A stretch of 64,000 nt of DNA from Myxococcota bacterium (lineage in GTDB: Bacteria; Myxococcota_A; UBA9160; SMWR01). Below, piece after piece: positions 25,544-36,875 of the stretch. The DNA lies in contig JBCCEW010000008.1 of assembly GCA_039030075.1 (NCBI GenBank), positions 124,001 through 188,000 of the forward strand. The letters are read 5' to 3'. Each line of letters begins with the position of its first letter. Position 1 is the stretch's first letter. A model generated the notes under the pieces. The model saw nothing but the letters and a program-made list of their open reading frames with translations, searched no databases and was not told the DNA's origin. The position numbers and the translations under genes were made by a program.

Positions 25544-26845
25544 TCAGGGAGAAATCGGGTCTCTCGCGAGCCGAATTCCGCTGAATTGCCAGCGGGCGTC
25601 TGGGTAGAAGAAGTTGCGGTAGCTGGCGCGGATGTGATCGGCGGGCGTTGCGCAGGAGCCGCCGCGCAGCACCATCTGGCTGCTCATGAACTTGCCGTTG
25701 TACTCGCCGAGCGCCCCTTCGATCGGGCGGTAGCCCGGGTAGGGGCCGTAGGCGCTCTGGGTCCACTCCCAGACGTCGCCGAAGAGCTGGACGAGATCGC
25801 CGGTGGCGTCGACCGGAGCGCGCCGGGGATGCAGCGCTCCCGACTCCACGAAGTTCCCTTCGATCAAGCGCTCCGAAGCTTCGACGCTTCGCAGGGCTGC
25901 GGTCTCCCACTCGGCTTCGCTCGGGAGCCGCGAGCCCTGCGCGCGCGCGTAGGCGTCGGCCTCGTAGAAGCTCAGGTGGCAGACGGGAGCGTCCAGGTCG
26001 AGGGTGCGGCGACCGCCCAGGGTGAAGGTCGTCCACCCCGTGTCTTCGCGCCGCCAGTAGAGCGGCGCCTGCCAACCTCGTTCGGTGACGGCTGCCCAGC
26101 CGTCGGAGAGCCAGTGCGTCGGGTCCTCGTATCCGCCGGCTTCGACGAAGGCGAGGTACTCGCGGTTGGTGACGGGCCGACGGGCGAGTTCGAAGGGCTG
26201 GAGGTAGACCCGATGGCGCGGTCCCTCGTTGTCGAAGCCGAACCCGGAGCCCGGGTGACCGATCTCGACCAGCCCTCCCTCGAAGCGATGGAAGCGGTGT
26301 GCTTCCTCCGTCGCGCTGCCCTTCTCGCTCGCCGCCGACGCGCGGTACGCCGGATCGAGCGGGTTGCGTGCGAGCAGATGCTTCAGGTCGGTGAGGATGA
26401 GCTCCTGGTGCTGCTGTTCGTGGTGGTTGCCCAGGTCGACCACCGCGCGGCCCGCGGGCGAGACCCGGTCGGCTTCGAGCAGCGCGAGCACCTGCGTGTC
26501 CACGTGCTCGCGATAGGCGAGGATTTCGTCGAGGCCCGGTCGCGACAGCAGGCCCCGGTGAGGGCGCGAGTACTGCTCGCCGACGCTGTTGTAGTACGAG
26601 TTGAACAGGAAGCGGAACTCGGGCCGGAAGGGCGCGTAGTCGGGGATCGCCGCCTCGAGCACGAAGGTCTCGAAGTACCAGGTGGTGTGCGCGAGATGCC
26701 ATTTCGTGGGGCTGGCATCGGGCATCGACTGCAGCGCGCAGTCTTCCGGCGAAAGCGGATCGGCGAGGGCGATCGACGCCGAGCGGATCGAGCGGAAGCG
26801 CTTGGCCAGGGCCTCGGCGCTGGGAGCATCGCTGGAGATCGTCAT
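25544..26845 (-). CDS. egtB: Ergothioneine biosynthesis protein EgtB
   Basis: A 433-residue non-heme iron sulfoxide synthase, close to the family length. The N-terminal DinB-like domain (about 10-170) carries the iron ligands: a His of WHLAH (49-53) and the HEQQH motif (142-146). The C-terminal formylglycine-generating-enzyme-like domain (about 185-430) holds RPVTNREYLAF, LPSEAEWE, DVWEWT and VLRGGS. EgtB joins hercynine to cysteine or gamma-glutamylcysteine with O2. The usual partner egtD (histidine methyltransferase) is absent from both sides; instead a DUF427 gene lies 50 nt upstream and a TPR gene downstream. Confidence 0.92.
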   Translation of the reverse strand: MTISSDAPSAEALAKRFRSIRSASIALADPLSPEDCALQSMPDASPTKWHLAHTTWYFETFVLEAAIPDYAPFRPEFRFLFNSYYNSVGEQYSRPHRGLLSRPGLDEILAYREHVDTQVLALLEADRVSPAGRAVVDLGNHHEQQHQELILTDLKHLLARNPLDPAYRASAASEKGSATEEAHRFHRFEGGLVEIGHPGSGFGFDNEGPRHRVYLQPFELARRPVTNREYLAFVEAGGYEDPTHWLSDGWAAVTERGWQAPLYWRREDTGWTTFTLGGRRTLDLDAPVCHLSFYEADAYARAQGSRLPSEAEWETAALRSVEASERLIEGNFVESGALHPRRAPVDATGDLVQLFGDVWEWTQSAYGPYPGYRPIEGALGEYNGKFMSSQMVLRGGSCATPADHIRASYRNFFYPDARWQFSGIRLARDPISP

Positions 26846-35973: not shown

Positions 35974-36198
35974 CTACGATTCGAGCAGGCGCAGGATCTC
36001 GTCGGTCTCGGGGAAGCGTCCCTCGGCCTGCTTCGAGAACACGAGTCGCTCGCCGTCGCGCACCTCGAAGTCTCCGACCTTGCCGGGAATCAGGGTCGTC
36101 TCGACGTCCAGGGACTCCTGCAGCGCGGCCGCCAAACTGGTGGCCTGGGGCAGGTAGTTTCAACGCGCGCAGTAGGTGATCGAGAGGGGTCGGCCCAT
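35974..36198 (-). CDS. SelW/Rdx-type selenoprotein with in-frame TGA as Sec
   Basis: A 74-residue protein when the TGA at 36160-36162 is read as selenocysteine. The N-terminus ends in ITYCAR then Sec13 and NYLPQATSLAAALQ, giving the C-x-x-U redox motif (C10-A-R-U13) and the helix that follows it in the SelT/SelW/SelH (Rdx, TIGR02174) family. Downstream come LIPGKVGDFEV, RLVFSKQAEGRFPE and EILRLL, the normal family core, then TAG. Codon use stays coding-like to the TAG. A GGAG lies 7 nt before the ATG. A candidate SECIS hairpin follows the TGA. It starts 19 nt after a thioredoxin-fold isomerase gene on the same strand. Predicted role: small cytoplasmic thiol/selenol oxidoreductase. Read as a stop, the TGA would leave 12 residues. 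Confidence 0.85.
36127..36145 (-). promoter_or_regulatory. Candidate bacterial SECIS hairpin
   Basis: In the mRNA, GGCC-A-CCA pairs with UGG-C-GGCC around a GUU loop: seven base pairs with one A-C mismatch. The stem begins 14 nt after the UGA and the loop G is nucleotide 23 after it, close to the placement in E. coli fdhF. A G at the start of a small apical loop is what SelB recognises in known bacterial SECIS elements. The hairpin also has to code for protein, so some pairing could be chance. Confidence 0.55.
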
Positions 36199-36217
36199 GA
36201 CGGTCTCCGCTTGGGGT

Positions 36218-36817
36218 TCAGAGCTTTTCGAGAGCTTCGCGCACGTGGGGAATGCGTTCCATCCCGTAGAAGAGCTCGTTGCCGACCAGGAAACTCGGCA
36301 CGCCGAACACGCCCGCCTCGTGCGCCCATTCTTCCAGCCGTGCGTACTCGGCCCGTCCGGCGCCCTCGAGGAACGACGGAAAGCCCGCCGCGTCCAGACC
36401 GACCGAAGACAGCAGCTGGCACAGGACGTCGAGATCGCCGAGATCGAGGCTCCGCCGCCAGAACCGATCGAAGAGCGCGTCATGGAAGGCGCGCGGATCG
36501 CCCTGACGGCGGGCGTAGAGGAACGCGACGTGGGCGTCCGCGCTGTCGACCGGCGCAGGCGGCGGCACGAGCGGGAGTCCGCGACGCGTCGCTTCGCGTT
36601 TGCAGTCCCGCAGGACGTAGCGGGCGCGTCGACGCCGGGCGGGCGCATCGCGGTCGGTGGCCATCGCGTCCGGAGACGGGCTCGCGAACTCGGCGTCGGA
36701 CAGCGTGTAGGGGAGCAGCACCAGTTCGGCGCCGCATTCCGTCTCGAGCGCACGGGCGTCCGCCTGGACCAGATACGCGTAGGGGCTCTTGTAGTCGAAG
36801 AAATGGATGACGCGCAT
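36218..36817 (-). CDS. DsbA-fold 2-hydroxychromene-2-carboxylate isomerase-like protein
   Basis: A 199-residue thioredoxin-superfamily protein. VIHFFDYKSPYAYL (3-16) is the N-terminal strand and active loop of the HCCA isomerase/kappa-GST group, where a Ser replaces the CxxC of DsbA; GVFGVPSFLVGNELFYGMER near the C-terminus holds the cis-Pro and the closing strands. Members use glutathione to isomerise aromatic breakdown products, but many are uncharacterised. I chose the ATG at 36817; a TTG at 36826 is possible. It is followed by the selenoprotein gene after 19 nt, so a joint thiol-redox role is plausible. Confidence 0.83.
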   Translation of the reverse strand: MRVIHFFDYKSPYAYLVQADARALETECGAELVLLPYTLSDAEFASPSPDAMATDRDAPARRRRARYVLRDCKREATRRGLPLVPPPAPVDSADAHVAFLYARRQGDPRAFHDALFDRFWRRSLDLGDLDVLCQLLSSVGLDAAGFPSFLEGAGRAEYARLEEWAHEAGVFGVPSFLVGNELFYGMERIPHVREALEKL

Positions 36818-36875
36818 CGGTGTCAACCAGGCTAGCAGGCAGCGTTCCTTCCGGGCGCGCGCCGCTGCCGAGGGT

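Follow-up and report, generated by a model that had tools for sequence, protein, structure and literature searches.

A SelW-like (Rdx) gene with an in-frame TGA at codon 13 in a Myxococcota bacterium, predicted to encode a selenoprotein

Can a short frame that is broken by a TGA after only 12 codons encode a complete protein? The question is raised by one locus of the window (the whole stretch of 64,000 nucleotides analysed here, from a contig of a Myxococcota bacterium), for which a preliminary description had proposed a SelW/Rdx-type selenoprotein with a C-x-x-U motif. Family membership, a conserved TGA, a conserved hairpin and a complete decoding machinery are established by computation, and the gene almost certainly encodes a 74-residue SelW-like selenoprotein in which the UGA of codon 13 is read as selenocysteine (Sec) by way of SelB and the hairpin. 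The features of the locus are:

35974..36198, minus strand (36198→35974): putative SelW-like (Rdx) selenoprotein gene, 74 codons plus TAG, with C10-x-x-U13
36160..36162, minus strand: in-frame TGA, codon 13, predicted to be read as selenocysteine
36205..36208, minus strand: GGAG, a ribosome-binding-like site 6 nt before the ATG
36218..36826, minus strand (36826 to 36218): upstream DSBA-like thioredoxin-fold gene, 94 bits to the DSBA family

The coordinates 35974-36198 were given exactly in the preliminary description, which left the strand unstated; it is the minus strand that carries the gene, and translation of the plus strand of the same interval yields no SelW-like protein. Read from ATG to TAG, the minus-strand frame has 74 codons, with 12 before a single in-frame TGA and 61 after it, just as had been described, and with TGA as U its product is MGRPLSITYCARUNYLPQATSLAAALQESLDVETTLIPGKVGDFEVRDGERLVFSKQAEGRFPETDEILRLLES. 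The GGAG attributed to the gene is found at 36208-36205, and the thiol-fold gene said to lie 19 nt ahead of it is the DSBA-like gene, located on the same strand. This neighbour was considered as a second selenoprotein gene and ruled out: it has no in-frame TGA, and none was found in the DSBA and thioredoxin families of the genome. The order of the two genes is kept in a same-genus genome only, most other loci having been examined with short flanks, and it is a weak indication of a functional link.

The read-through product matches a single Pfam family, Rdx (PF10262), with 62 bits against a curated cut-off of 22.6 (6.3e-17), and the SelT/SelW/SelH model TIGR02174 with 49.1 bits against 34.2. 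It also spans nearly the whole of the narrower NF041051 model (SelTWH_Campy) with 85.6 bits, 2.4 bits short of the cut-off of 88, and by this score would not count as a member. Sequence searches reach solved Rdx proteins such as 3dex, 2fa8 and 2ljk. The AlphaFold2 model, built from a 30-sequence alignment with Sec modelled as Cys, has a pLDDT of 92.5 and places C10-A-R-U13 in a loop after strand 5-10 and before helix 16-30. Bacterial SelW-family structures take the first 21 places among its Foldseek matches, ahead of MIEN1 and mouse SelW; E-values for the SelW-family structures range from 4e-7 to 6e-6, the best including 3dex, 2fa8 and 2p0g. Model confidence and structural matches together identify a thioredoxin-like Rdx fold, in agreement with the proposed assignment. 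The solved bacterial SelW-family proteins 3dex, 2fa8, 2p0g and 2obk share its fold, with TM-scores of about 0.85-0.93 when scaled to the query length, at 22-34% identity. Mouse SelW (2npb) and human MIEN1/C17orf37 (2ljk) share family and fold with a weaker match.

Translation might nevertheless end at the UGA, in which case a 12-residue leader or regulatory peptide would be the functional output. UGA may indeed terminate in selenium-poor cells, yet the 61 downstream codons are conserved, with G42, F44, V46, S55, K56 and P63 invariant among the aligned SelW-like sequences (29 relatives), and the downstream part folds with the N-terminal strand into a complete Rdx domain in the AlphaFold model. 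A functional 12-residue product is vanishingly unlikely, and the preferred reading remains that of the full 74 residues.

How widely the TGA is shared was followed through 98 genomes, ranging from genus to phylum and including the organism's own. TIGR02174 matches occur in 80 of these and carry an in-frame TGA in 71. Sixty TGA-bearing sequences were compared, comprising that of the window, 54 from relatives and 5 from named contigs in public data, with the labels Planctomycetota, Krumholzibacteriota, delta proteobacterium, Gemmatimonadetes and Thermomicrobiaceae. The codon following C-x-x is TGA in all 60, and the corresponding codon is TGC or TGT in all 17 Cys paralogues, which is the signature of a bacterial selenoprotein gene, a UGA at the position of a cysteine. 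Given this conservation and the strength of the Rdx match, the frame is not a product of chance. Cys or Sec had been expected at position 13, and relatives have either TGA or, in a second Rdx subfamily, Cys; a frameshift or other stop codon at this place was looked for among the relatives read and none was found. A Cys-type SelW broken by a nonsense mutation would leave a pseudogene of similar appearance, as a Cys codon is one base from TGA (TGC/TGT to TGA) and Cys-type Rdx paralogues exist. Decay of this kind is contradicted, however, by conservation of both frame and TGA across families: the TGA is common to 60 sequences, distant phyla included, and the protein downstream of it is intact. 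The Sec machinery is moreover complete and the genome holds 16 more active-site TGAs, making a pseudogene extremely unlikely.

The organism's own genome contains a second Rdx gene (L029, G000:C2:216287-216505), which is of the Cys type (CxxC) and belongs to a distinct subfamily also found in other relatives. One Cys-type Rdx gene of a relative (L048, G077:C28:23207-23425) has an in-frame TAG at the Gln of the AQELL motif of its relatives, which may reflect an error in sequencing, decay of the gene or some rare event.

A selenoprotein gene should travel with the means to decode it. TGA-bearing SelW genes co-occur with selB or tRNA-Sec (67 of 71 genomes with the gene against 16 of 27 others, Fisher p = 7.5e-5) and, less sharply, with selB alone (57/71 against 15/27, p = 0.02), p-values that are only indicative, since the genomes share ancestry and not all of them are complete. 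In four relatives with a TGA-bearing SelW (G016, G067, G086 and G097), no match to selB or to tRNA-Sec passes the thresholds applied; the first three are less than 85% complete, and G097, at 94%, is an unexplained exception. The G097 gene (L074, G097:C94:7602-7799) does have the hairpin described below, selB and a strong tRNA-Sec match being absent from its genome at these thresholds. Elsewhere, in G083, selB is followed on its own strand, after about 120 nt, by the TGA-bearing SelW gene (L067 region, G083:C87:26743-28935), an arrangement that ties a selenoprotein to its decoding factor through gene order.

The organism's own assembly (5.76 Mb in 55 contigs, 95% complete, 3.3% contamination) may be a metagenome bin. 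It contains a tRNA-Sec with anticodon tca (UCA; 69.7 bits), selB (322.6 bits), selA (517 bits) and selD (271 bits). The preliminary description had predicted a Sec decoding system and named the absence of selB and tRNA-Sec as what would speak against the gene; both are present. A second Rfam match to tRNA-Sec (C3, 51 bits) was dropped, being called tRNA-Ser(tga) by ARAGORN. SelD (L018/L118, G000:C6:73595-74503) has a C-G-G-C motif within a long open frame of 863 codons. Ndh-SelD fusions with CxxC have been described (PMC2398784); motif and frame length are compatible with these, and the protein is possibly such a fusion.

Bacterial SECIS elements are described as having a guanosine in a small apical loop (PMC1088965). 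The sequence behind the UGA of the window offers a candidate, identified by single-sequence folding and conservation:

36127..36145, minus strand (36145 to 36127): bacterial SECIS-type hairpin GGCC-A-CC-[AGUUU]-GG-C-GGCC

Its stem begins 14 nt behind the UGA, and the AGUUU loop (36138..36134) has G at its second position. The single-sequence fold is modestly better than that of shuffled sequences (z = -1.94). Across the alignment, 89% of hairpin pair cells are standard and at least 6 of the 7 pairs are kept in 56 of 59 distinct sequences. A synonymous-codon null gives 65% pairs (maximum of 1000: 71%) and 10.9 sequences with at least 6 pairs (maximum 22). The corresponding values are 85% (maximum 86%) and 43.5 sequences (maximum 49) under a column-permutation null, where synonymous codons are permuted within columns so that column make-up and each protein are preserved. 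None of the Cys paralogues keeps 6 or more of the 7 pairs. With numbering that starts at the U of UGA, three pairs take more than one standard form: 21-33 (C-G, G-C and U-A), 23-31 (C-G and A-U) and 24-30 (C-G and G-C). Pair 22-32 is mismatched in most sequences, that of the window included. The second loop position is G in 59 of 59 sequences, and loop serines are encoded by AGU (AGT) in 48 of 48 cases; further downstream, the same genes choose this codon for 3% of their serines. Folding energy just behind the UGA is below the synonymous expectation (mean z about -0.9), the effect being clearly weaker further downstream, and the shift in Cys paralogues is weaker and non-significant. These patterns indicate that the hairpin is kept by compensatory changes and synonymous codon choice, and its conservation and G-bearing loop fit the published description of the bacterial SECIS.

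Protein-level homology alone cannot distinguish which residue is inserted, and the UGA could be read through as another amino acid, by near-cognate misreading as Trp or Cys or by a change of the code. Such decoding would account neither for the presence of tRNA-Sec, SelA, SelB and SelD nor for a conserved SECIS-like hairpin behind the UGA, and UGA is an ordinary stop elsewhere, as in the upstream DSBA-like gene. Insertion of another residue is very unlikely, and incorporation of Sec at U13 is deduced with high confidence from evidence at the sequence level. The hairpin would recruit SelB with Sec-tRNA(Sec), and the ribosome would insert selenocysteine at codon 13. The protein would then work as a small oxidoreductase of the thiol/selenol type, with U13 attacking the substrate and C10 resolving the selenenyl-sulfide. 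Glutathione or the upstream DsbA-like protein as its partner is only a guess from family and gene order.

The sequence is new, and the family to which it belongs is an already established and common one. SelW-like proteins are long-known and abundant bacterial selenoproteins (PMC1088965, PMC2398784, PMC13188914), and the most abundant selenoprotein family in ocean metagenomes (PMC1088965, PMC2398784). Bacterial members from the Sargasso Sea and GOS data share the Rdx fold, C-x-x-U and a single UGA (PMC1088965, PMC2398784), and their SECIS lies in the coding region directly downstream, as the candidate hairpin does here, unlike the SECIS of eukaryotes, which is placed in the 3′ UTR (PMC1088965). 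There is no essential difference from these proteins; identity to the 29 aligned relatives is 39-58%.

The SelW-like gene is probably one of many selenoprotein genes in this organism, as the following were found in its genome:

L099, L100 and L104-L117, several contigs: 16 TGA-bearing peroxiredoxin-, GPx- and AhpD-like genes

The AhpC-TSA search supplied 12 of them, including one of GPx-like appearance (L113), and the CMD/AhpD search the other 4. By motif, the TGA stands at the place of the active cysteine in all 16 (for example FTFVU, FTPGU, WUPPC, WUPYC, NVASQUGLT and CFYUTSAH), which argues that the organism decodes many selenoproteins; with SelW, three family searches give at least 17 probable genes. 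A GC3-based scan of the window for TGA-interrupted genes returned 4 candidates, none convincing, and was insensitive enough to miss the SelW-like gene as well.

Two matches to heme-copper oxidase subunit I (G000:C7:28194-29555 and C1:267931-269244, 431 and 141 bits) suggest oxygen use, such oxidases being no proof of aerobic life. The window also encodes EgtB of ergothioneine biosynthesis, an O2-dependent enzyme (25544-26845, minus strand, 587 bits; 373 bits to the selenoneine synthase SenA, below the cut-off of 420). According to a 2026 review, aerobic bacteria rarely retain selenoproteins, and the largest bacterial sets comprise 57 and 63 genes (PMC13188914). Contrary to that generalization, the lineage may respire O2 and yet keep a large selenoprotein set devoted mostly to peroxide and thiol handling, a reading that is possible and held tentatively. 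It stays a lead, since the presence of oxidases does not establish that the organism lives aerobically, and its 55-contig assembly may be a metagenome bin. In the literature library searched, no paper combined selenoprotein, selenocysteine and Myxococcota. If the lead is true, a selenium-based peroxide defence would be made up of the Sec enzymes of the SelW-like, Prx-like and AhpD-like kinds.

Reading of the raw sequence can thus recover selenoprotein genes that annotation with standard stops loses or truncates. A single SelW-like gene adds little to biology. More is to be gained from the genome around it, in which at least 17 redox genes with a TGA occur together with genes for heme-copper oxidases, a combination that bears on the question why selenocysteine is kept by some bacteria that use oxygen.
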